From positions 1 through 64,000 of the forward strand of contig NZ_JQKD01000006.1 in NCBI RefSeq assembly GCF_000745855.1: a DNA stretch of 64,000 nucleotides. Reading direction: 5' to 3'. Shown here piece by piece: positions 7,500 to 64,000 of this stretch; the first letter of the stretch is position 1, and every line of letters begins with the position of its first letter. The notes under the pieces were generated by a model, which ran no database searches, was not told the DNA's origin, and saw only the letters and a list, made by a program, of their open reading frames with translations. Source of the stretch: Xenophilus azovorans DSM 13620. GTDB lineage: Bacteria; Pseudomonadota; Gammaproteobacteria; Burkholderiales; Burkholderiaceae_C. The translations under genes were made by a program, and so were the position numbers.

Positions 7500-8224
7500 C
7501 GAGCGGCATCCTCCATCGCGTCGAGGCAGTAACCCTGCCCGTAGACGGCGCGCAGGCTCATGCCCCGCTCCGCGTCGAGCCGCAGCTTCCTGCGCAGGCG
7601 GTAGATATGGCTGTCGAGCGTGCGCGACGGCTCGTCCTCGGTCGGATAGCCCGCCGCCTCCAGCAGGTGGGCACGCGAAACCGTCTGCCCCAGCCGGCCG
7701 AACAGCAGCTGCATCAACTGGAACTCCCGGCCAGTCAGCGCATGCTGCTCGGCGGGCGCATCCGGCGCCTCCTGGTAGCCGACCGATTGCGCCACCGGGT
7801 CCAGCGTCCAGTGGCCGAAGGTCTGCCGGCGGTCCGGCGCCAGCGGCTGGACGGGCCGCAGCAGCCTCATGACGCGCGCTTGCAGTTCGAGGGGCCGGAA
7901 CGGCTTCACGACATAGTCGTTCGCCCCCGCGTTCAGCGCATCGGCCACGTCGCGGTCCGCGCCCTTGGAACTGAGCATCAGCACCGGAACGCTGCTGTCC
8001 TTCCAGGTGCGCAGCCACTGCAGCACCTCCATGCCGTCCAGCGAGGGCGCTGCCCAGTCCAGGATCACCAGATCGAAGGACTCGCGCCGCAGCAGGCGCT
8101 GCAGTTCCCGCCCGTCGGAGAAGGCGCGGCAATGCACGCGCTCCTCGCCGCCCAGCTGGCGCACGAGCGTGCGCACCAGCAGGCCCTGCTGGATCGGGTC
8201 GTCCTCAAGGATCGCTATGCGCAT
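7496..8224 (-). CDS. OmpR/PhoB-family response regulator (adhesin locus 1)
   Basis: I chose the start at 8224 because the receiver begins directly (MRIAILEDDP); an upstream in-frame ATG at 8299 would add 25 unconserved residues. The 242-residue protein has a complete receiver domain: acidic pair at Asp8/Asp9, phosphoacceptor Asp56 (LVILDW) and Lys107 (YVVKPF). A winged-helix DNA-binding domain follows, with the LTGREFQLMQLL and TLDSHIYRLRRKL runs and the end loop GQGYCL. The gene is first in the leftward set regulator-LysM/FecR-kinase and is divergent from the trimeric autotransporter gene. Direct repeats in the 274-bp gap are plausible binding sites. Confidence 0.93.
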   Translation of the reverse strand: MRIAILEDDPIQQGLLVRTLVRQLGGEERVHCRAFSDGRELQRLLRRESFDLVILDWAAPSLDGMEVLQWLRTWKDSSVPVLMLSSKGADRDVADALNAGANDYVVKPFRPLELQARVMRLLRPVQPLAPDRRQTFGHWTLDPVAQSVGYQEAPDAPAEQHALTGREFQLMQLLFGRLGQTVSRAHLLEAAGYPTEDEPSRTLDSHIYRLRRKLRLDAERGMSLRAVYGQGYCLDAMEDAAR

Positions 8225-8498: not shown

Positions 8499-11400
8499 AT
8501 GAATAAAAGCTACCGCTCCATTTGGAACGATTCCCTCGGCGCGTGGGTCGCCGCGTCCGAGATCGCCAAGGCGCACGGCAAGCCGGCCCGCGCACGCGTC
8601 CGCGCCGTGGGGGCGCCGATCCTGAGCGGCGTGGCCGGCGGCGTGCTGCTGGCGCTGGCCGGGCTGTCTGCGCCGGCACTCGCCGATACGCCGATCACCG
8701 ACGCCGCCACGGGCGCCACCTGCGCCCGCCCCGGCAGCAGCGGCGCCTGGGTCTGCCAGGTGCCCAACGGCAGCGGCGGCTTCGCCACCGTCACCGGCCC
8801 TGCCGGCAGCGCCGCTGCGCCCAACTTCACCGCGCTAAGCACCTGGGTCGGCAGCAACCTCGGGGGTGCGGGGGCCATTGTCCTGGGCAATGCGGACACC
8901 CAGGCCACCGCGGCCAACGCCGTCGCCATCGGCGCCGGCGCCAAGGCCCAAGGCGCCTCCGGCGTTGCCTTGGGCGATGACGTCACCTCGGGGGCGCAGG
9001 GCTACAACGTCGCCATCGGCTCGCAGGGCACCAGCGCCAGCGCCACACCCACCAGCTCGCCGGACATCGGCGCCGTGGCCATCGGTCGCTCGCAGACGGC
9101 CGACGGCGATGGCGCGGTGGCCATCGGCTCTTCCAACACGGCGACGGGCGATGGCTCGGTGGCCTTGGGACGCGCCAGCACCGCAACGGGCGAGGGCTCG
9201 CTGGCGCTCGGCAATGGCGCCTATGCCACCGGTGCACGCTCGGTCGCGTTGGGCACCACGGCCCAATCGACCAACTTTGCCACGGTGGCGCTGGGCGACG
9301 GCGCGAACGCGGGCGGCAGCAGCGCCATCGCCATCGGCCGCATCACCGAAGCGACGGGCTACAACGCCATTGCCATGGGCGACTGGGCCAAGGCAAGCCA
9401 GCGGGACGCCCTTGCCATCGGTGCCAACGTGACCGCATCCGGCGTGGGTACCACCGCCATCGGCGGCAGCCAGGTGTCTGCCAATGCGGCCAAGGCAACT
9501 GCCGACCGTGCCACCGCACTGGGCTATGGCAGCACCGCCAGCGGCACCGACACCATTGCCATCGGCGACAGCACGGCGCAGGACCCCAACGCCATTGCCA
9601 TGGGCCTGGGCGCCCGCGCGGGCAGCGCCTCCTATCCGTCGGACACCAGCCAGATCGCCATCGGCCAGAGCGCCTTGGCCGACGGGCAGGGGAGCATCGC
9701 ACTGGGCATGGGTTCGCGGGCCAGCCGCAATCAGAGCGTCGCGCTGGGGCAGGGCGCCGAATCCTGGAACGAGTCCGTCGCCATCGGTGCCGGTGCCACG
9801 AGCGGCGGAACCATCGGCTCGGGGATGCACCTGGGCGGCATCGCCATCGGCTACGGCGCCGACGCCACGGCCCTGCACGCCACGGCCGTCGGCTACCAGG
9901 CCAGTGCCGCCTACGGCGTGGCCAACCGCGCCGTCGTGCTGGGCTACAGCGCTGACGTCACCGCGGCGGATGCCATTGCCGTAGGCGCCAACGCTCAGGG
10001 CACAGGCGAGAACGCCACCGCCATCGGCGGCGACGACGTTCCGGGCAACGCAGCGCAAGCCACCGGCCCGCGTTCCACGGCGCTGGGCTATGGCAGCAAG
10101 GCCTCGGCCGCGGATGCCATCGCCATCGGCGACAGCACGGCGGCCGGCGTGAACACAACGGCCGTGGGCGCGATGAACAATGCAGGCACCGGCCAGCAAA
10201 GCACGGCCGTGGGCTACAACAACCGGATTACAGGGGCTTTCGGCAACTCAACCGCGGTGGGCAGTGGAAACACCGTGGGCGGCCAGAACACCTCAGTGTT
10301 TGGTTTGGGCAACACCACCAGCGGCACGGGCGCTACGGGGGCGGTGGCTCTGGGCAACCAGAACACCATCGAGGCGCCCACCACGATCGCCGTGGGCGCC
10401 GTCAACAGCATCGGCAGCAACGCTCAGTACGCCATTGCATTGGGCCGATCGAATACGGTGACTGCCACCGTGCCAGGCACGGGCGGCGTGGCCCCGGTCG
10501 CAGTGGGTTCGCAGAACACCTTGAGCAACGATGGTGCACTTGCCGTGGGCGTGGGCAACACCGTCGCCGGCAAATACGCCGTGGCATTGGGCCGGGCCAA
10601 CACAGCATCCGGCGAACAGGCGCTTGCCTTGGGTAACAGAGCAAATGCCTCCCAAACCGATGCCATCGCCATTGGCACGAATGCCAAAGCTGCGGGCGTC
10701 AGCAGCATCAGCATCGGCACGGGCAACGTGGTGACGGGAGCGCGCTCGGGTGCCATCGGCGACCCCACCGTGATCGACGCCGCCGACAGCTACAGCGTGG
10801 GCAACAACAATACCCTGGCCGCCGCCGCCACCAACACCTTCGTCCTGGGCAACAACGTCAACATCGACGTGGCGAACGCCACCGCACTGGGCAACGGCAC
10901 TGACGTGACCGCGGCCGGCGGCGTGGCGCTGGGCGCGGGCAGCGTGGCGAACACCACGGCTGGCGTTGCCGGCTTTGTGCCAGCCGGCGCGGATGCTGCG
11001 CAGCAGGCATCAATCGCGGCCACCACCGGCACGCTGGGCGCGGTGAGCGTAGGCGACGCAGCCAATGGCCAATACCGCCAGATCACCGGCGTGGCGGCGG
11101 GCGCAGTGGACACCGATGCCGTGAACGTGGCCCAACTCAAGGCTGTCTCCAGCGCAGCGGCGGCGGGCGCGGTGCACTACTACAGCGTCAACGACAACGG
11201 CACGCCAGGCGGCAACTACGACAACGACGGCGCCACAGGTCCCAACAGCCTGGCTGCAGGCGTTAGCGCCAAGGCGGCGGGCATCGGCAGCATTGCCATG
11301 GGCTACGAGGCCAATGCATACGCCGGCGGCGTGTCCATCGGCTATGGCGCGGGCAAGAACTCCACCCCCACGGCTACGAATCAACAGGCCAACGTCTGGA

Positions 11401-14400
11401 TCGGCGACAACGCCGGGGCGAACAGCAGCGGGTCCAACAATCTCGCCATAGGCACCGCCAACTCGGGCACCGTGGTCCTCGGAAACTCCAACACCGCTGT
11501 CGGCCAGACCGCCGGTACCCGTGTCACTGGCGACTCGAATACAGCATTGGGCGGAAGCGCGGGCGGCAATGTCTATGGCTTCTCGAATACTGCACTCGGT
11601 AGCATGGCCGGCCAGTTCGTGGGCTCGGCCGCGATCAACAGTTCTCGCAACACGGCCGTGGGCCTGCAGTCCGGCGCCTATGTGAACGGCGACTCGAACG
11701 TGGCCATGGGCGATACGTCGGGATGGGGCACCAAGGGCAGCCGGAACGTGGCCATCGGCCGCTGGGCAGGCAACGGCGCGGTCTACGAAGGCGGTTTCCC
11801 CGACGAAACCAAGGGCACGGTGACCAACCGCACTATCGCGATCGGCGACTCGGCCTGGACGTACGCAAGCCAAGCCGTGGCGATCGGCTACGGCGCCAAA
11901 TCGAAGGCGGTCAACGCCATCGCCATCGGCACGGGCGCGCAGGCCACGGGTGTCGGCAGCATCAGCATCGGCACGGGCAACGTGGTGACGGGCGCGCGTT
12001 CGGGTGCCATCGGCGATCCCAGCTTCATCGACGGCGACGACAGCTATGCGATCGGCAACAACAACAAGATTGCGGCAGGCACGAACGAAGCCTTCATCCT
12101 GGGCAACAACGTTCAGCTTGGGGCGGGCGTGAATCGTGCCGTCGCGTTGGGCGCCAGTGCCAGTGTCACAGTGGCCGATGGTGTCGCGCTCGGTGCGGGC
12201 AGCGTCGCGAATACGGCGGCGGGCATTGCGGGTTACGTGCCCGGCGGCGCGGGCGGCGCGCAGACCGATGCCATCAATGCCACGCAGAGCACACTGGCTG
12301 CAGTGAGCGTGGGCTCGGCGGGCAATACACGCCAGATCACCAACGTGGCGGCCGGCAGCGTGGACACCGATGCCGTGAACGTGGCGCAGCTCAGGGCCGT
12401 CTCCAGTGCGGCGGCGGCGGGCGCAGTGCATTACTACAGCATCAAGTCCGCCGTTACGGGCGCAGGCAGCAACTACGACAACGACGGCGCGACGGGCGCG
12501 AACGCACTGGCCGCTGGCGTGAATACCTCGGCCAGCGGTGACCGCAGTACGGCTGCCGGATACGAAAACAACGTGTCGAGCAAGGACAGCACGGCCGTCG
12601 GCAGTGGCAACACGATCAGCGGCAACTACCTTGGCCTCGCGGCCCTGACGACCAGCAACACGGCAGTTGGCGTGGACAACACGATCGACAAGAGCAGCCG
12701 CGTTGCGGTCTTCGGAGGCGGCAACGAGGTGTCATCGTCCCTGTCGGCCATGACGATCGGCTCGGGCAACACTGTTGGCAGCAGCATCGGCGTGGGTGTC
12801 TATGGCATCGATAACGAGATTAGCGACGCGTTCGGCATCAGCATCACTGGCGGTCAGAACGTAGTGCAGAACTCAAATAACACTTTCATCGTGGGTGGCG
12901 GCAACGCGGTGACCGGCAGTGCGGGCACGGTGGGCGTCTTCGGTGCAGAAAACACCCTTAATAACGCCACCATCGTTTCTGCGATCGGCGACAGGAACGA
13001 GATCACCGATGTAAGCGAGAGCGGGGTGCATGGCTCGGGCAACAGCCTGAGCGGCGGAATCACCGGTGTGCGCGTGCTCGGCAACAACAACACCGTGACC
13101 GCCAATAGCGCCATGGTGCTGGGCAACGGCGCCACCGTCAGCGCGGCCGATGGCGTAGCCCTTGGCAACGGTACCATCGTGAGTCATGCCAGCAACGTGG
13201 CGTTGGGCGCGGGCAGCACGGACAAGGCGGCGGTGCAGGTCAACGACGCCACCATTCCCGGAGTGATCGCCACGCTGAATCCGGACGGCACGGTCACCTA
13301 CTCGGCCGGCCCGACCATCACCTACGGCGGCTTCGCCGGCACCGCCACGGGCGTGGTCAGCGTGGGCGCAGCGGGCGCGGAGCGCCAGATCGTCAACGTG
13401 GCGCCGGGCGCGATCACGGCCACCAGCACCGACGCCGTCAACGGCAGCCAGCTGTATTCGGTGGCCAGCCAGGTCAACGCCATCGGCGGCAGCATCACCA
13501 CCATCGTCAACAACGCCAGCTCGCACTACTACAGCGTCAACGACGGCGGCACCCAGCAGGCCAACTACGACAACAGCGGCGCCAGCGGCGCCAACAGCAT
13601 CGCCTCCGGCCCGGGCGCGACGGCCAGCGCCGCCAACGCAGTGGCCATGGGCGCCAACGCCAGCGCTACCACCGCCAACAGCGTCGCACTGGGCGCGGGC
13701 AGCACCACCACCGCTGCCACACCGACCTCCGGCACCACCATCCGCGGGCAGGACTACACCTTCGCGGGCGCCAACCCCGCCGGCGTGGTCAGCGTCGGCT
13801 CGGCCGGCCAGGAACGCCAGATCCAGAACGTGGCGGCCGGCCAGCTCAGCGCCACCAGCACGGACGCGGTCAACGGCAGCCAGCTGTATGCCACCAACCA
13901 GGCGCTTGAGACGCTGAGCGTGACGGCCAACGCGGGCATCAACGTGACCACGGCGGCCACGGGCACGGGGGTGGCGGTGGGCACCAGCGTGGCCAACGTG
14001 GGGCCGGGCGGCGTGGCCACCTACACGGCGGGCAACAACATGGTGCTCACGCAGAACGGGGCGAACGTGGCCTTCGCGGTGAACGACAACCCCACCTTCA
14101 ACAGCCTGACCGTGGGCAACACCAGCATCACGAACAACGGGGTGAGCATCCAGGGCGGGCCGAGCATGACCACCAGCGGCATCAACGCCGGCGGCACCGC
14201 CATCACCAACGTGGCGCCGGGCGTCAACGGCACCGATGCGGTCAACGTCAACCAGCTCAACGCCAACACCGCCGCCACCAGCCTGCGGCTGAACCAGTTG
14301 GGCGACCAGATCAACACCATCGGGCAGAAGGCCTATGCGGGCGTGGCCTCGGCCATGGCGGTGCAGGCGCCGGCGCTGTCGATTCCCGGCAAGACGACGA

Positions 14401-36304: not shown

Positions 36305-36376
36305 CGCAATCTCTCCATCGTCCGATTGTCTTCGGAAGGCCGCGGAGCAGGCCATGCCAGCGACCGCCGCGGAACC

Positions 36377-36453
36377 GGCTTTGCCGGGCCGCTGACGGTG
36401 CCCCCTTGCAGGGGGTTGCCGAAGCGGAACGAAGTCCGCGCAGGCTGGGGGTT
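36377..36453. repeat. GC-rich intergenic repeat, copy 1 (abuts dps stop)
   Basis: The run begins GGCTTTGCCGGGCCGC, contains GCCCCCTTGCAGGGGG and CCGCGCAGG, and ends CTGGGGGTTA. The same start, C-run/G-run hairpin and TGGGGG end are seen in the copy inside recG (40562-40648), and the second half at 41070-41125. The last two bases overlap the dps stop codon, so the element may have supplied the current end of dps. Confidence 0.65.
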
Positions 36454-38836: not shown

Positions 38837-41026
38837 TCAGGCCTTGAGGTATTCAGCCCGGGTGCCGAGCCAGCGGTCCACGTGGCGCCGCGCCAGCTCG
38901 GGGTGGCCATCGAGCAGCCGCGGCGCCAGCTCGCGCGCCCAGTCCAGCAGCCGGCCGTCGGTGGCCAGGTCGGCGAAGCGCAGCAGCGGCGCGCCGGACT
39001 GGCGGGCGCCGAGGAACTCGCCGGGGCCGCGGATCTCCAGGTCGCGCCGCGCGATCTCGAAGCCGTCGGCGGTCTCCACCATCGCCTTCAGCCGCGCCCG
39101 CGCCGCCTCGCCGACGCGGCCGCTGTCGCCGGTGGCGTAGAGCAGCACGCAGGCCGAGGCCGCCGCGCCGCGACCCACCCGGCCGCGCAACTGGTGGAGC
39201 TGCGACAGGCCGAAGCGCTCGGCGTGCTCGATCACCATCAGGGAGGCGTTGGGCACGTCCACGCCGACCTCGATGACGGTGGTGCTGACCAGCACGTGCA
39301 GCGTGCCGGCAGTGAACTCGGCCATCACCGCCTGCTTCTCGGCAGTGGGCATGCGCGAGTGCAGCAGGCCGACTTGAACGCGCTCGCCCAGCGCCTCGGC
39401 CAGCTCGTCGCGCGTGGCGGTGGCGTTGCGCAGGTCGACGGCCTCGCTCTCCTCGATCAGCGGGCAGACCCAGTAGACCTGCCGGCCCTGGGCGAGCTGT
39501 CCCTGGATGCGCTCGATCACCTCGTCGCGGCGGTGCTCGGCCACCAGCCTGGTGATGACGGGCGTGCGGCCGGGCGGCAGTTCGTCGAGGGTGGAGACGT
39601 CCAGGTCGGCGTAGTAGCTCATCGCCAGCGTGCGCGGGATGGGGGTGGCGCTCATCATCAGCAGGTGCGGCTCCAGCGCGCCTTCGGCCTTGCCGCGCAA
39701 CGCGAGCCGCTGCGCCACGCCGAAGCGGTGCTGCTCGTCGACGATGGCCAGCGCCAGCCGGGCGAAGCGCACCTTCTCCGAGATGACGGCGTGCGTGCCG
39801 ACCACCAGCGCCGCCTCGCCGCTCTCCACGGCGGCGGCCATCGCGTCGCGCTCGCGCTTCTTCTGGCTGCCGGTGAGCCAGGCCACGCGCAGGCCGCGCT
39901 CGGCCAGCAGCGGGTCGAGCCAGCCCACCAGCTTGCCGAAGTGCTGCGAGGCGAGGATCTCGGTCGGCGCCATCAGCGCGCACTGGAAGCCCGCGTCGAT
40001 GCAGCGCGCCGCGGCCAGCGCGGCCACCAGCGTCTTGCCGGAGCCGACGTCGCCCTGCAGCAGCCGGTGCATGGGCTGCGCGCGCGCCAGGTCGCCGGCG
40101 ACCTCGCCGTCGGCGCGGCGCTGGGCGCCGGTGGGCGTGAAGGGCAGCACACCGAGCAGTTGTGCATGCAGCGAGCCGGCGCCGTCCGGCGCACGCAGGA
40201 TGGGCGCACGCTGCGCCGCGCGCTCTCGCCGCGCCTGGAGCTGCGAGAGCTGCTGCGCCAGCAGTTCCTCGGCCTTCAGGCGCTGCCAGGCGGGATGGCT
40301 GTGGTCCTCCAGCGTGGCGAGCGCCACGTCGGGCGCCGGGTAGTGCAGGAAGGACAGCGCCTCGCGCAGCCCCCAGGCGCGCGGCGGCATCAGGTGCGCC
40401 GGCACGATGTCGTCCAGCGGCGCGCGCGCCAGCCCGGCCTGCACGGCGCGGCGCAGCACGGGCTGGGCCAGGCCTGCCGTGGTGCCGTACACGGGCGTGA
40501 GCGCCAGCGGCAGCGGTGTGCCGGCAGCCTTCACGGTCGGGTGCATCATCGTCCGCCCGAACAAGTAGCCCCCACGCTCCCCCGCTGCGCGTGGTCCGCT
40601 GCCCCCCAAGGGGGCGCTTTGGCCCTTGGGGCGGCCCGGCGGGCCAAAGCCGCCCTTGACCTCGCCCCGCACGCGCACCCGGCTGCCCGGCGCGAGCTGC
40701 TTCTGCTGCGAGGGATAGAAGTTGAAGAAGCGCAGCTGCACCGTGTCGCTGCCGTCCTCCAGCGTGGCCAGCAGCTGGCGGCGCGGGCGATACACCACCT
40801 CGCACTCGGTGATCACGCCCTCCACCTGCGCCGTGTCGCCCTCGCGGGTGCTGGCCAGGGGCACGATGCGCGTCTCGTCCTCGTAGCGCAGCGGCAGGTA
40901 CAGCGCGAAGTCGATGTCGCGGACCAGGCCCAGCTTCTTCAGCGCGCGCTGCACGGCGCTTTCGCCACTGCCGGGGGCGCGCTGCGGGGGCGCATCGGCA
41001 GGGGCGGGGGGCTTCGAAACGGGCAT
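38837..41026 (-). CDS. recG: ATP-dependent DNA helicase RecG with in-frame repeat insertion
   Basis: The start at 41026 gives a 729-residue protein. After a wedge/OB domain comes the superfamily 2 helicase core: Walker [27 protein letters not shown] (DEQH box), [11 protein letters not shown], and the C-terminal QLRGRVGRG. It remodels stalled replication forks. At residues about 127-155, in the OB part, the expected run [10 protein letters not shown] is interrupted by 29 extra residues ([20 protein letters not shown] and more) encoded by a repeat element. The frame is kept and all helicase motifs are present, so the protein is probably still active. A repeat copy also lies upstream. Confidence 0.96.
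40562..40648 (-). repeat. GC-rich repeat copy 2, inserted in frame in recG
   Basis: The 87-nucleotide segment (leftward: CTTTGGCCCGCCGGGCCGCC, then GCCCCCTTGGGGGG, CGCGCAGCG, GTGGGGGCTA) matches the intergenic element at 36377-36453 in its start, hairpin and end. It carries the dyad GCTTTGGCCC / GGGCCAAAGC (40616-40650). It encodes 29 residues without a stop. Confidence 0.75.
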
Positions 41027-41069
41027 GGGAGAATTCTGCCCTTCAAGAAAGCGCCGGGCCGTTCCCAAG

Positions 41070-41125
41070 CTTTCTTGCTCCCCCTCGGGGGGCGGGCTGG
41101 GCGCAGCCCGGACCTGGGGGCCTGC
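41070..41125. repeat. GC-rich intergenic repeat, partial copy 3
   Basis: Contains GCTCCCCCTCGGGGGGCGGG, GGGCGCAGCCCGG and CTGGGGGCCT, matching the second half of copies 1 and 2. It lies in the divergent recG-queA gap (41027-41159), which otherwise holds no clear promoter. Confidence 0.55.
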
Positions 41126-50997: not shown

Positions 50998-52944
50998 TCA
51001 CGAGGCCAGCAGTCCGTCCACGTGGCTGCGCATGGCCTCGGGCGCCAGCTCGGCCGGCGGCATGGCCGGCCCGACGTTCAGGCCCACGCGGCTGAGCAGG
51101 CCGCGGCGGAAGGGCCGCACCATCGCCACGTTCTCGCCGTTTCGCACCTCGATGCGGCTGAAGAAGGAACCCCACAGGTTGGTCAGTGCCATCGGAATCA
51201 CCGGCGCTTCGATGCCTTCGGCGCGCGCGAGTTCGAGGATCTTCATCACGCCGCCCTTGAAAGGCTGCAACTGCCCGTCGCGAGTGATGCCGCCCTCGGG
51301 GAAGATGCCCAGCAGGTCGCCCTCGCGCAGCACCGCCACGGCCTCGGCGAAGGCGCGTTCGTAGGCGGCGGCATCCTCCTTCTGTGGCGCGATGGGGATG
51401 GCCTTGGCCAGCCGGAACAGCCAGCCCAGCACCGGCACCTTGAAGATGCGGTGGTCCATGATGAATCGCACCGGCCGCGGGCTGGCCGCCATCAGCAGCA
51501 CCGCATCGACGAAGCTGACGTGGTTGCACACCAGCACTGCGGGCCCTTCGGCGGGGATGTGCTCGTCGCCGCGCACCTTGAAGCGGTAGACGCAGCGCGA
51601 GGCCACCCAGGCGACAAAGCGCAACAGGTACTCGGGCACCAGCATGAAGATGTAGAAGGCCACCACCGCGTTGGCGATGCCGGTGAAGAGGAAGATCTGC
51701 GGGATGGTGAAGCCCGCCGCCAGCAGCGCGCCGGCGATGACGGCGCTGCCGATCATGAACAGCGCGTTGAGGATGTTGTTGGCGGCGATGACGCGCGCCC
51801 GGTGAGTGGGCTGGCTGCGCAGCTGGATCAGCGCATACATCGGCACGCTGTACAGGCCCGCGCACAGGCTCAGCAGCGCCAGGTCGGCCATCACGCGCCA
51901 GTGCGAGGCGTGGCCGACGAAGGCGGCGGCGCCCATCTCGGCCGCCGGCGGCAGCCCGCGCGAGGCGAAGTACAGGTCGATGGCGAACACGCTCATGCCG
52001 ATGGCGCCCAGCGGCACCAGGCCGATCTCGACCTGCCGGTGCGACAGCGTCTCGCACAGCAGGGAGCCGATGCCGATGCCCACCGAGAACACCACCAGCA
52101 GCAGCGAGGCCACCTGCTCGTTGCCGTGCAGCACCTCCTTGGCGAAGGCCGGGAAGTTGCTCAGGAACACCGCGCCGAAGAACCACATCCACGAGATGCC
52201 CAGCAGCGAGCGGAACACCACCACGTTGCCGTGCGCGAGCTTCAGGTTGCGCCAGGTCTCGCTCACCGGGTTCCAGTTGATGCGCAGGCCCGGGTCGGTG
52301 GCCGCCGTGCGCGGGATCGCCTGCGCCGCCACACGGCCCGCCAGCGCCAGCAGCACGCAGCCGGCCGCCACCGTCGTGTGGCCGATGCCGGGCAGCGCCA
52401 CCAGCAGGCCGCCGGCCACCTGACCGAGCAGGATGGCGACGAAGGTCCCCATCTCCACCATGCCGTTGCCGCCGGTGAGCTCGCGCGCGTCGAGCACCTG
52501 CGGCAGGTACGCGTACTTGACCGGCCCGAACAGCGTGGAGTGCAGCCCCATGAGGAACACGCAGGCCAGCAGCACCGGCACGTGGGCCGTCACGAAGCCC
52601 CAGGCCGCGAGCAGCATGATCGCGATCTCGAGGTTCTTGACCAGGCGGATGATGACCGTCTTGTCGTACTTGTCGGTGAGCTGACCGGCGGTGGCCGAGA
52701 ACAGCAGGAAGGGCAGGATGAACAGCGCGCCGATCACCAGCCCGGCCATGGCCGGCTTCATCCAGGCGACCTGGAGCTGGTAGGTCACCATCACGGTGAA
52801 GGCGAACTTGAACAGGTTGTCGTTCGCGGCGCCGGCGAACTGCGTCCAGAAGAACGGGGCGAAGCGGCGCTGCCCCAGCAGCGCGAACTGGTTGGCCTGC
52901 GCGTTGGCGCCGGGCTGGGTGGGGTTGGAAGCGCTCGTGCTCAT
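50998..52944 (-). CDS. Fused lysophospholipid transporter (LplT/MFS) and PlsC acyltransferase
   Basis: The start at 52944 gives a 648-residue protein in two parts. Residues about 20-420 are a 12-helix major facilitator of the LplT type (FWTQFAGAANDNLFKFAFTV, YDKTVIIRLVKNLEI). Residues about 440-640 are a PlsC-type acyltransferase with the motifs NHVSFVDAVLL (His-x4-Asp) and FPEGGITRDG. Such fusions of lysophospholipid import with re-acylation occur in other proteobacteria as one protein or as LplT with Aas. It would bring lyso-lipids to the inner leaflet and re-acylate them. It lies 38 bases after the ceramidase-like gene, in one operon. Confidence 0.92.
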   Translation of the reverse strand: MSTSASNPTQPGANAQANQFALLGQRRFAPFFWTQFAGAANDNLFKFAFTVMVTYQLQVAWMKPAMAGLVIGALFILPFLLFSATAGQLTDKYDKTVIIRLVKNLEIAIMLLAAWGFVTAHVPVLLACVFLMGLHSTLFGPVKYAYLPQVLDARELTGGNGMVEMGTFVAILLGQVAGGLLVALPGIGHTTVAAGCVLLALAGRVAAQAIPRTAATDPGLRINWNPVSETWRNLKLAHGNVVVFRSLLGISWMWFFGAVFLSNFPAFAKEVLHGNEQVASLLLVVFSVGIGIGSLLCETLSHRQVEIGLVPLGAIGMSVFAIDLYFASRGLPPAAEMGAAAFVGHASHWRVMADLALLSLCAGLYSVPMYALIQLRSQPTHRARVIAANNILNALFMIGSAVIAGALLAAGFTIPQIFLFTGIANAVVAFYIFMLVPEYLLRFVAWVASRCVYRFKVRGDEHIPAEGPAVLVCNHVSFVDAVLLMAASPRPVRFIMDHRIFKVPVLGWLFRLAKAIPIAPQKEDAAAYERAFAEAVAVLREGDLLGIFPEGGITRDGQLQPFKGGVMKILELARAEGIEAPVIPMALTNLWGSFFSRIEVRNGENVAMVRPFRRGLLSRVGLNVGPAMPPAELAPEAMRSHVDGLLAS

Positions 52945-60412: not shown

Positions 60413-61273
60413 CTAGCGCTCGCCGCGCACCTCCAGCTCGACCCGGCGGTTCGGTTGCAGGCAGGCGATCAGTGCCGCGCGCGGCAGGCTGTCCGCGCAC
60501 TGCGCTACCGGTTGTGCCTCGCCCACGCCGTGGGCGCGCAGCGCGCCCTGCGGCAGCCCGCGCGCCGCCAGGTAGTCGCGCACCGTCGCGGCGCGCGCCA
60601 TCGACAGGCGCTGGTTGTAGGCCTCGCTGCCCAGCCGGTCGGTGTGGCCGACGATGGTGATGCTGTCCAGCCGCTTGTAGGCACCCTTGAGCTTCGCGGC
60701 CAGCTCGTCGAGCTGGCGGCGCCCCTCGGGCAGGATGTCGCCCGGCCCCGACTTGTCGAAGGCGAACAGCGCATCGGCGCCGAGCTGGAAGCGCTCCGGC
60801 GTCGCCGCCGGGACGCGCACCACCTCTGCGACCTTGGGCTTGAGATAGTCCGCACAGGCCGGCTCGCGCCAGTAGAACTGGTCGGACACCCCCTCCTTGA
60901 ACACCACTTTGTACTGGCAGGTCACGAACTCGTCGCCCTTGCCCGTGCGGAAGTTGAACAGGTAGTCCCATTCGGTGGGCCCGAACAGCCCTTCGCCGAA
61001 ATGCGGGTGGCTGATCAGCCCGCGCACCTGGTTCTTCGTCATGCCGCGGCCGATGCGGCGCAACTGCTCCACGTCGACGAAGGCGCCGCCCTTGAGCCAG
61101 GCGCTGCCCGGCTCGGGGAAGCGCACCTCCACCTTCTCTGCCGGAGCGCCATGCGCCACGTTGGTGGCCTCCACCTTGGACCCTGTGCTGCCGCAGGCAG
61201 CGAGCACGGCAGCCGCGGCCACCGCCGACGCCACACGCGCCGCACGGACGAACTTCATTTGCTTGCTTTTCAT
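60413..61273 (-). CDS. TpgA-like outer-membrane lipoprotein with SmpA/OmlA and OmpA domains (locus 2)
   Basis: I chose the start at 61273 (MKSKQMKFVR), 23 bases after the adhesin stop; a start at 61297 overlapping that stop (TGATG) is also possible. The 286-residue product has a lipobox LAAC (Cys27), an SmpA/OmlA part (IGRGMTKNQVRGLISHPHFG) and an OmpA domain (TIVGHTDRLGSEAYNQRLSM, CLQPNRRVELEV). It is the paralogue of 14573-15442 and has the layout of Acinetobacter TpgA. Its expected work is to tie the trimeric autotransporter to the peptidoglycan. Confidence 0.9.
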   Translation of the reverse strand: MKSKQMKFVRAARVASAVAAAAVLAACGSTGSKVEATNVAHGAPAEKVEVRFPEPGSAWLKGGAFVDVEQLRRIGRGMTKNQVRGLISHPHFGEGLFGPTEWDYLFNFRTGKGDEFVTCQYKVVFKEGVSDQFYWREPACADYLKPKVAEVVRVPAATPERFQLGADALFAFDKSGPGDILPEGRRQLDELAAKLKGAYKRLDSITIVGHTDRLGSEAYNQRLSMARAATVRDYLAARGLPQGALRAHGVGEAQPVAQCADSLPRAALIACLQPNRRVELEVRGER

Positions 61274-61296
61274 GATGTTGTGATCTCCGACCCGCA

Positions 61297-64000
61297 TCAG
61301 TCGAACGAGAAACCGAATCCCACGCGCGCGATCGGCTTGCTGCCGCCCGAGCCCCAGCCCACGCCGGCGTGCAACGTGGTCTGGCCGTTGTCGGAACGCT
61401 TGAGCAGGTTGAAGCCGATGCCCACCTGCCCGTTGTAGGCAGCCACGGCCCCCGTGAGGTGGTAGCGGCCCGGCTCCACCGGCGTGACCACCGCCATCGC
61501 CGCCGAGGCCGCGATGCCGCCCGACAGCTCCTTGCCCATCTTCGTCACCCGGTTGTCCAGGCCGTTGATCTGGTTCTGCAGGTTGCCGGTGGCCGCGTTG
61601 AGCTGGTTGACGTTCACCGCATCCGTGCCCGCCACGCCGGGTGCCACGTTGTGGATCGACGTCGGGCCGCTGCCGCCCGGGTTGAGCGTGACGCTGTTGT
61701 AGTTGGTGGTGCCGTCCACATGCGTGTCGTACTGGACGCCGCCGGCCTGGACCTGCTGCAGCTGGCTCAGGTTCACCGCGTCGGTCGGGTTGACGCCCAC
61801 CGCCACGTTGGTGATGGTGTTGCCGCCCATGTTGAGCGTGTTGCCCGCCTGCATGGTGATGCCGGTCTGGTTGATCGTCGGGCCGCCGTTGTTGATGGTC
61901 ACGCTGTCGGCCGTCAGGTCCGGCGAGGTGCCGATCGTCAGGTTGGTGCCGCTTTGCGTGACGACCATGTTGGTACCGGCATTCACCTGCACCGTGCCGC
62001 CCGGCCCCACGTTGGTGGCGGGGCCGCCGTTCACGCCCAGGTTCCAGCCGGCATTGGCCACGCTGGACACCGCCTCCAGCTGGCTCACGTTCACCGCGTC
62101 CGTCTGGTTGACGCCGGCCGCGACGTTCGTGATCACGTTGCCGCCGTTGTTCAGGCCGGTGTTGGTGAGGCTCACCGTGCCGTTGGGACCGCCGGCGATG
62201 CTCACGCCGTCGGTGTTCATCGTGGTGTTGCCGGTGGTCACGCTGTCGAACGACACGTTCGGATTCGTGGCGATGGTCAGCGTGCTGCCGTTCTGCGTCA
62301 GCGAGATGTTGTCGCCCGCCACGTAGGTGGCCGTCCCGCTCGGCGCCACGTTGGCCACGGAGGTGCCGCTGACCGTGCCGGTGCCGGTCTGCCCGGTGGT
62401 CATGTTCCAGCCGGCGCTGGCCGTGCTGCTGACCTGCTGCAGCGCGTCCTGCACCGTGTTGTAGGTGTTGCCCCCCACCGTCAGCACCGTGTTCAGCACG
62501 TTCGTGGCCGGGTTGTACGTCGTACCGCCGCCGATGGAATTGGCAATGGTCGTGCCGAGGCCATACAACTGGCTGCCGTTCACCGCATCGGTGCTGGTGC
62601 TGCCGATGGTGCCCGGCGCGACGTTGGTGATCACCAGATTGCCGGCGTCGATGCCCGCGGTGGTCATGCTGGGTCCGCCGGCGATGGTCACCCCGTCGGT
62701 GTTCATCACCGTATCGCCGGTGGTCACGCTGTCGAAGCTGACGTCCTTCTTGGTCGCCACGGTCACGTCGCTGCCGTTGCGGGTGATCTCGATGTTGTCG
62801 CCATCGAGAAACTGCACCGTGTCGCCCGGTGCGACGTTGCTCGCGGCGTCGCCGTTGGCCTGGAGGTTCCAGCCCGCGCCTGCGACCTTGGTGACGGCCT
62901 CGATCGCCTGGTTGGTGGCGTACAACTGGCTTCCGTTGATCGCATCGGTGCTGGTCTGGCTGATGCGGCCGGCGGCCACGTTGGTGATCTGGCGCTCCGA
63001 ATCCGCGGCGCCGACGCTCACCACGCTGGTCGGGTTGATGCCCTGGAAGTTGTAGGTCGTGCCATTGATGGTGACGCTCGCGGTGGGGTTGGCCGCGGCG
63101 GTCGTGCTGCCGGAGCCCAACGCCACGTCGTCGACGTTGTTCGCCGCGGCGCCCGCCCCGACGGCCACCGTGTTGCTGGCGCCCAGCACGGCGCCATGGC
63201 CGATCCCGACCACGCTGTCCGCCGCGGCGGCAACGCTCAGGTTGTTACCGAGGAGCTGCGAGTTGACGACCCCTGCACCGACGTTCTGGGTGTTGTTGCC
63301 GATGAGCTGGCTGTTGGTCAGGCCGGTCAGCACGCTGGTGTTGCCCAGCGCGTTCATGCCGGTGATGACGCTGCCCGTAGCATTGGCCACGTTGAGGTTG
63401 GCACCCGTGATCGCGCTGACGTTCGAGTTGCTGACCTTGTTCAGCGCCCCGCTGACCATGACCCCCTGGCCGCCGGTCAGCTCGTTGTTGGAGCCGAAGA
63501 CCATGGAACTGGTGGCGCCGGTCACGTTGTTGAAGCCGCCGATGACGCCCGCCTGCGTGGAGTCCGTCGTGTTGTTGGTCTGGCCCAGCGTCCAGGAATT
63601 CGTGCTGTTGTCGATGACGGAGGCGTCGCCGATCACGATCGACTTCTCGCTGCCGCCGCCGAGCACCTTGGCTTCCGGGCCGATGGCGATGGACCTGACC
63701 GACTCCGTCGCCGCCTCGTAGCCGACGGCGATCGACCTGCCCTTGTCACCCGCCGGATTGGGCGACGTGGGCAGGCGCTGGCCGTTCGCCGAGGCGCCCG
63801 CCCCGATCGCGACGTCTTCGTCGAGCTGCGCGGACGCACGGGTGCCCGCAGCCAGCGAATTCGTGCCCGCCGCGCCGTCGTTGTCGTAGTTGCCCTGCGT
63901 CGTGGTGCCGTCGTTGACGCTGTAGTAGTGGGTCTGGTTGCTGCTGAGCTGGCTCACGTTGACGGCATCGGTCGGATTGGTCCCCGCCGCGACGTTCGTG
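61297..64000 (-). CDS. Trimeric autotransporter adhesin, C-terminal 900 residues (locus 2)
   Basis: The frame is open to the end of the window, so the N-terminus and signal are missing. The visible part has YadA-like head repeats (for example SIAVGYEAATESVRSIAIGP), neck motifs (NVAAGVNQTDAVNVSQLEAV), at least three Trp-ring/GIN-like stalk domains with AGWNLQANG, AGWNMTTGQ and AGWNLGVNG, and the YadA membrane anchor (YNGQVGIGFNLLKRSDNGQT). The last residues are FSFD. Unlike locus 1 the passenger has more stalk domains. It is followed by its TpgA-like partner. It makes trimeric surface fibres. Confidence 0.95.
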   Translation of the reverse strand, partial: TNVAAGTNPTDAVNVSQLSSNQTHYYSVNDGTTTQGNYDNDGAAGTNSLAAGTRASAQLDEDVAIGAGASANGQRLPTSPNPAGDKGRSIAVGYEAATESVRSIAIGPEAKVLGGGSEKSIVIGDASVIDNSTNSWTLGQTNNTTDSTQAGVIGGFNNVTGATSSMVFGSNNELTGGQGVMVSGALNKVSNSNVSAITGANLNVANATGSVITGMNALGNTSVLTGLTNSQLIGNNTQNVGAGVVNSQLLGNNLSVAAAADSVVGIGHGAVLGASNTVAVGAGAAANNVDDVALGSGSTTAAANPTASVTINGTTYNFQGINPTSVVSVGAADSERQITNVAAGRISQTSTDAINGSQLYATNQAIEAVTKVAGAGWNLQANGDAASNVAPGDTVQFLDGDNIEITRNGSDVTVATKKDVSFDSVTTGDTVMNTDGVTIAGGPSMTTAGIDAGNLVITNVAPGTIGSTSTDAVNGSQLYGLGTTIANSIGGGTTYNPATNVLNTVLTVGGNTYNTVQDALQQVSSTASAGWNMTTGQTGTGTVSGTSVANVAPSGTATYVAGDNISLTQNGSTLTIATNPNVSFDSVTTGNTTMNTDGVSIAGGPNGTVSLTNTGLNNGGNVITNVAAGVNQTDAVNVSQLEAVSSVANAGWNLGVNGGPATNVGPGGTVQVNAGTNMVVTQSGTNLTIGTSPDLTADSVTINNGGPTINQTGITMQAGNTLNMGGNTITNVAVGVNPTDAVNLSQLQQVQAGGVQYDTHVDGTTNYNSVTLNPGGSGPTSIHNVAPGVAGTDAVNVNQLNAATGNLQNQINGLDNRVTKMGKELSGGIAASAAMAVVTPVEPGRYHLTGAVAAYNGQVGIGFNLLKRSDNGQTTLHAGVGWGSGGSKPIARVGFGFSFD

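Follow-up and report, generated by a model that had tools for sequence, protein, structure and literature searches.

The repeat known as BRE is 75-91 bp long in Bordetella, occurs in Betaproteobacteria including Comamonadaceae and is usually found between genes and in tandem arrays (PMC3110155, in its accessible part); the same account had reported by 2011 that some copies lie 'entirely within coding sequences' (PMC3110155). As described in the accessible parts of PMC10969869 and PMC3733652, the Rickettsia palindromic elements (RPE) are short repeats that stand in-frame in many unrelated protein genes and are apparently tolerated there. Many of the intragenic GTAG/CGTC REPs lie in replication and repair genes, and uvrA is hit twice in some genomes (PMC3733652, accessible text). 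Sequences like the Wolbachia palindromic elements (WPE) are placed in-frame in three recombination genes, addA, addB and priA, and, according to the accessible part of PMC4224334, are non-inactivating except for addA in six strains. The accessible text of PMC5217627 held nothing bearing on the repeat considered here, and a literature search, thin on subscription papers, found no report of an in-frame census of such a repeat in Comamonadaceae or of replaced stems.

We analysed a repeat located within recG of Xenophilus azovorans DSM 13620, in a window comprising the first 64,000 nucleotides of contig NZ_JQKD01000006.1 (71% G+C). Very probably, recG contains one copy of family A, a dispersed and presumably mobile repeat with three hairpins, of which only in-frame, stop-free gene copies persist, the segment being read as a linker in a RecG that most likely works. 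The encoded protein carries the wedge, OB, helicase and C-terminal RecG domains by Pfam, and the wedge and OB matches stop at residues 122 and 120 (723-aa query beginning at residue 7), which is the position of the insert. The reading frame has no internal stop (Table 1). An earlier sequence-only reading had placed a repeat in-frame within the wedge/OB region of RecG, and it was confirmed on this point and in part overall. The same reading had described an 87-nt segment at 40562-40648 that adds 29 residues. A repeat is indeed found there, but 40562-40567 fall outside the conserved core, leaving an element of 81 nt; likewise, 29 residues do stand between F127 and G157, but relatives have one residue in their place, so that RecG is longer by 28 residues net (84 nt). 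The relative at locus L062 spans residues 13-723 in 2049 nt, as against 2133 nt here, a difference of 84 nt. No Rfam family was matched at the insert site at gathering thresholds. Elsewhere in the window, Rfam gave a match to the Bcj11 sRNA at 52129-52250 on the minus strand (106.8 bits).

Table 1. Coordinates, within the window, of recG, its repeat and the neighbouring repeats of other families.
Feature	Position	Strand	Remarks
recG coding sequence, including stop codon	38837..41026	-	729 aa, no internal stop
Family A repeat element, in-frame in recG	40568..40648	-	81 nt, 80% G+C; RecG longer by 28 residues net
Stem H1, outer arm X TTTGGCCC, element end	40641..40648	-	pairing drops to about one half beyond position 8
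H1 constant 15-nt loop GCCGGGCCGCCCCAA	40626..40640	-	
Stem H1, inner arm X' GGGCCAAA	40618..40625	-	reverse complement of X
Hairpin H2, C-run/G-run CCCCCTTGGGGGG	40602..40614	-	zero variation in alignment A2, so silent on covariation
Hairpin H3, small stem, three-base loop	40581..40594	-	covaries among copies
Family B repeat, gap between two genes	36363..36453	+	three-hairpin layout; left boundary approximate
Family D repeat, just upstream of recG start	41044..41121	+	91% to the family D copy inside valS

Comparison with related genomes shows the recG segment to be an insertion. The insert was absent from all 14 other genomes of the genus, being present in 1 of 15 with its own included: in each of the 14 the match ends at query residue 121 and restarts at 145-150, and the two pieces adjoin exactly in 12 genomes and overlap by 6 nt in G004 and by 12 nt in G002. 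An alignment of RecG from relatives, which the sequence-only reading had suggested as a check, found the insert residues in none of these 14 genomes and in none of the 78 readable relatives (80 loci named, L138 and L141 left out; sequences compared by eye). Across the same 14 genomes and 78 relatives we looked for distant RecG proteins carrying the residues where no matching repeat exists elsewhere, and found none. Empty sites were also compared for three other host genes and one other species. The uvrA site measures 157 nt against 70 in relatives (+87), and its copy is also present in G005 and G006; for three relatives 72 is printed because their stretch starts two bases further upstream. In valS, the site of the family A copy measures 155 nt against 74 in one group of relatives and 83 in another (+81 or +72), and that of the family D copy 150 nt against 72 (+78). 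The glnE site, which holds a tandem pair, measures 246 nt against 78 (+168), G002 having 111 nt of partly different sequence, and the family A copy in L122, from another species, brings a net gain of 87 nt. Net lengths are multiples of three at the sites checked. No consistent target-site duplication was seen at the sites compared (recG repeats, uvrA, valS, glnE and L122).

BLAST with the 87-nt query located the repeat at 41 places or more in the 6.54 Mb genome, recG among them, all with E <= 1.2e-8, a lower bound as 40 of 145 candidates were scored; among the copies listed, the best other one shares 91% identity with the recG copy over 74 nt. With the empty sites of all 14 same-genus genomes, this upholds the claim of an inserted family repeat. 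A stricter pattern detects family A copies in 14 of the 15 genus genomes, own included, and misses them in G012 alone. Of 200 genomes sampled from the order, the own genome among them, 22 were matched by a covariance model made from 34 copies (E <= 1e-4; eight family labels), and the other 178 gave no match under strict filters. Tandem family A copies are found at L014, L346, L347 and L352. Arrays with a period of 80-83 nt were noted in other genera, at L347 (1402-1640, plus strand) and, on the minus strand, at L346, L349 and L352; in the L347 array, adjacent copies differ by paired changes across the two arms. A single 94-base query matched one plasmid record (a Variovorax replicon of 1.3 Mb) and none from phages, and spread by plasmid or phage is not supported by these counts.

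The genome-wide repeat search included a count of copies inside genes. Forty-four family A copies of this genome were examined by codon-position G+C on both flanks, and 25 of them read through in one frame without a stop; one family D copy does likewise, which brings the total to 26 insertions in 23 genes, split 16 to 10 between the two orientations. The remaining 19 family A copies comprise 8 between opposite strands, 8 with one side lacking a clear coding signal and 3 with flanks on the same strand in a different phase; among the last, L029 resembles a stop/start junction, and L019 or L204 may include an out-of-frame copy within a gene. The 22 hosts other than RecG were searched against NCBIfam (20) or Pfam (10; eight in both), and each matches at least one library, many of them below the curated cut-off because open-frame fragments served as queries. 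For most host proteins, the family model either is interrupted at the insert or extends over it. By best name the hosts are UvrA (two genes), RecJ, ValS (one A and one D copy), MurD (two copies), GlnE (tandem pair), AccC, a second biotin carboxylase-type enzyme, TrpE, CcsB (insert upstream of the matched stretch), glucose-6-phosphate isomerase, AceE/2-oxoacid dehydrogenase, PrmB, RimI, CobO, GlcD, NrtR, malate/lactate dehydrogenase, an ABC permease, a FemAB-like protein, DUF2126 and a molybdenum hydroxylase. Several of the 23 host genes are usually essential. These in-gene calls rest on codon-position G+C and on family matches to open-frame fragments, with empty-site comparison for recG, uvrA, valS and glnE. 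The recG insert thus exemplifies a wider habit and is nothing peculiar to RecG. The sequence-only reading had known of no such case in this group, a statement that no longer holds in view of the 26 in-frame copies in the same genome, further repeats in other recG genes and, in its accessible part, the 2011 account of BRE (PMC3110155).

Among recG genes, L064 carries a family A repeat in-frame (9200-9297) that is independent of the window insert, and L105 (Variovorax) has an A-like copy (9214-9300) in the same RecG loop as that of L064. In L122, recG contains an in-frame family C repeat, and the adjacent gene, presumably queA, a family A copy (9487-9594 and 7646-7753). A loop between helicase motifs of RecG (approximately residues 446-451) was seen to have received repeated in-frame insertions in relatives; further insertions at that loop, in L066, L132, L134, L136, L138 and L139, are hairpin repeats (L134, L136 and L139) or unrelated sequence.

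A repeat at 36377, in the gap between what we take to be ubiA and dps, had been assigned by the sequence-only reading to the same family as the recG copy. The layout is alike, with a variable stem, a C/G-run hairpin, a small hairpin and a GGGGG end, but the family is different: the repeat is not among the 41 places, and direct BLAST against the recG copy returned nothing at 11-base words and matches of 7-16 nt only at 7-base words. We therefore rejected its membership of family A and typed it as family B; families A, B, C and D share layout only. The family B pattern gave 77 matches, of which 30 are loci (22 typed B, 8 other), and by the same codon-position G+C test none of these 30 copies reads through in a gene, although 7 have one frame on both sides with an intervening stop. 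Viewed by eye, the family B copies L032-L061 seem to lie within a few bases of a stop codon and to have a stem with covarying arms. Two further regions of the window, 8899-14264 and 60421-64000, which from their appearance we take to be two trimeric autotransporter-type adhesin genes, each contain long imperfect direct repeats, with inverted relatives between the regions.

The element consists of the 8-bp stem H1 around a near-constant 15-nt loop, followed by H2 (CCCCC/GGGGG), H3 and then GCGTGGGGGC. Terminal inverted repeats and target-site duplication are features of MITEs; in the recG copy the two ends of the element are not inverted repeats of each other. The pairing of H1 was examined in 93 family A rows of 97 (two non-repeat or other-family matches, one family B and one family D row being dropped), which comprise 66 distinct arm pairs. 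The arms pair at a mean of 7.56 of 9 positions, as against 4.85 with arms reshuffled (5000 shuffles, largest 5.42), and pairing falls from 54/66 at position 8 to 33/66 at position 9. In alignment A2 (34 sequences), all five counted H1 pairs have changes on both sides, with 42 double-sided cells against 9.8 in shuffles and a covariation score of 0.380 against 0.101, neither reached in any of 500 shuffles, and the signal is lost on sliding the partners. Two weaker measures (pairs with a double change; further pair types) were attained in 21/500 and 26/500 shuffles. Thus, the H1 stems covary. H3 also covaries, 27 copies having CC/GG around CGC/GCG and others AT/AT, GG/CC or GC/GC around CAC/GTG. 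The covariance model R1 covers 5 of 8 H1 pairs and 4 H2 pairs, some pairs being omitted because arm length varies in the alignment.

The 8-bp end stem is the unusual feature of this repeat, in that copies otherwise nearly identical may have two entirely different arms, which mostly still pair. Of 87 distinct copies, 53 pair fully (8/8), and these show 32 different outer arms; the remaining copies pair incompletely. When fully paired copies were compared two by two, 143 pairs had no more than 2 differences in the 45 nt of H2+H3; the arms differ at 5 or more of 8 positions in 44 of these pairs and at 0 or 1 in 36; L153 and L242, from two genomes, have 0 differences over H2+H3 and differ at 5 of 8 arm positions. 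Where copies occupy the same site in two species, the uvrA pair L011/L304 has one compensated change and, with flanks judged by eye, L004/L176 has one compensated change, L004/L224 and L208/L196 none, and L024/L235 two uncompensated changes. Judged from sequence comparison, this looks like whole-stem replacement, via re-templating or conversion between copies.

How the repeat moves can be outlined in conditional terms. Family A, as an element of 81 nt, would insert at many places in the genome and, within genes, the survivors would be those insertions that keep the frame and add no stop. The recG copy and a family A consensus are open in all six frames, and since the repeat is also very G+C-rich it is readable as a linker; the product would be a disordered stretch, rich in Gly, Pro, Ala and Ser, within a surface loop. 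In RecG, 28 residues would be added after a strand of the wedge OB fold, and the enzyme would most likely still work. It is possible, though we put it forward only tentatively, that family A is a mobile element recognised by its structure, with an 8-bp end stem that is rewritten at insertion; movement would then proceed via a folded single strand, in which the other arm or the target serves as template for one arm, and such movement, if real, would seed essential genes with disordered linkers. A general rule by which the inner arm mirrors flanking host DNA was rejected: pairing ends sharply after 8 positions, and the outer arm is not host sequence at the empty sites of uvrA, valS copy D and L064. 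The outer arm is close to host sequence (7/8 by eye) only in the non-recG copy of L122 and in valS copy A, two sites to which the rejection does not extend, and that of L122 is not an exact match to the window host sequence CTCACCGCC. Mobilisation by a RAYT was likewise unsupported, no RAYT lying near the repeats; the genome has one Y1_Tnp match (32 bits, cut-off 23), and the 3.3 kb around it contain no recognisable repeat core and one loose pattern match.

For RecG itself, an AlphaFold model built from 31 sequences was of moderate quality only (mean pLDDT 74, pTM 0.55), with 1gm5 as its best PDB match. Residues 127-156 have pLDDT below 50 and lie between strands 116-124 and 158-161, and the insert is accordingly predicted to form a disordered loop between two strands. 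The sequence-only reading had proposed that, by its place in the part that touches the fork, the insert could alter DNA binding. That the insertion was selected in RecG for changed fork binding by the wedge domain is a notion to which its location lends some appeal, as it lies in the wedge/OB region some 25 residues (counted on the alignment) after the positions aligning with F204 and Y208 of T. maritima RecG, aromatic residues that we take to be fork contacts. We consider it highly unlikely, however, given that the insert is confined to one same-genus genome of 15 and predicted to be disordered, that the same family occurs in some 20 unrelated proteins and that repeats occupy different places in other recG genes. 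The presence of the same family in many unrelated enzymes argues for tolerance and not for a function in RecG, and a floppy loop with little effect on the enzyme would be the expected outcome.

A role at the level of nucleic acid, as terminator, RNA stability element or folded-DNA signal, with protein insertion as a side effect, would account for the covarying stems and for the many intergenic A and B copies that lie within a few bases of a stop codon (by eye, uncounted), and in copies whose inner arm is GATGAAAA the opposite strand reads as a G+C hairpin with a T run behind it. We regard such a role as rather unlikely to be what maintains the repeat, since genes contain over half of the family A copies examined, with both orientations represented, the T run is missing from most arms and the compared sites are empty in most relatives. 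Mitochondrial byp elements are a precedent for bypassed segments, and a hairpin-rich insert in housekeeping genes brings to mind translational bypass or RNA removal, by which the segment would be absent from the protein. A skipped element needs neither frame nor freedom from stops, however, whereas 26 of 26 in-gene copies have both (the set itself being chosen for these properties) and only 3 copies are candidates for another phase, which makes this reading exceedingly improbable. The genome is a draft in 132 contigs, yet an assembly or contamination artefact has a practically negligible chance, as the segment lies within a 289 kb contig, the in-gene copies have their own arms and flanks, and the family is present in 14 of 15 genus genomes. 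We thus favour the reading of the recG segment as a dispersed, probably mobile repeat tolerated as a linker.

Set beside the described systems, family A resembles BRE in size (81 nt) and in dispersal (22/200 order genomes), a likeness in description, and both have tandem arrays and in-gene copies (family A, 25/44 in genes); the accessible part of the BRE account, in contrast, gives no in-frame census, no stem covariation and no proposed function (PMC3110155). With the REPs it shares the hitting of repair genes, here two uvrA genes, recJ and recG. REPs are, however, described in the accessible text as palindromes of 20-40 bp with GTAG or CGTC at one end, whereas family A has 81 nt and three hairpins, and neither motif occurs in the recG copy on either strand. 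GTAG REPs also go with a RAYT (Y1_Tnp) gene, and family A has no such association in this genome. WPE, again likened by description, belong to a different host group, and recG is unnamed among the WPE-bearing genes in the accessible account. In-frame insertion in many unrelated genes, a trait of RPE, is seen here as well (26 in 23 genes), a likeness in the manner of insertion; RPE are approximately 150 bp long in the accessible accounts, as against 81 nt and 80% G+C for a repeat whose recG copy is open in six frames. Rickettsia is an intracellular, A+T-rich host. The present findings suggest that Rickettsia-type palindromic repeats in protein genes are not confined to A+T-rich intracellular bacteria, and the 26 inserts in 23 genes amount to replicated natural experiments on the tolerance of proteins to 25-30 extra residues, while the changing, mostly paired end stem offers a handle on the movement of enzyme-less repeats such as BRE, RPE and CGTC REPs.
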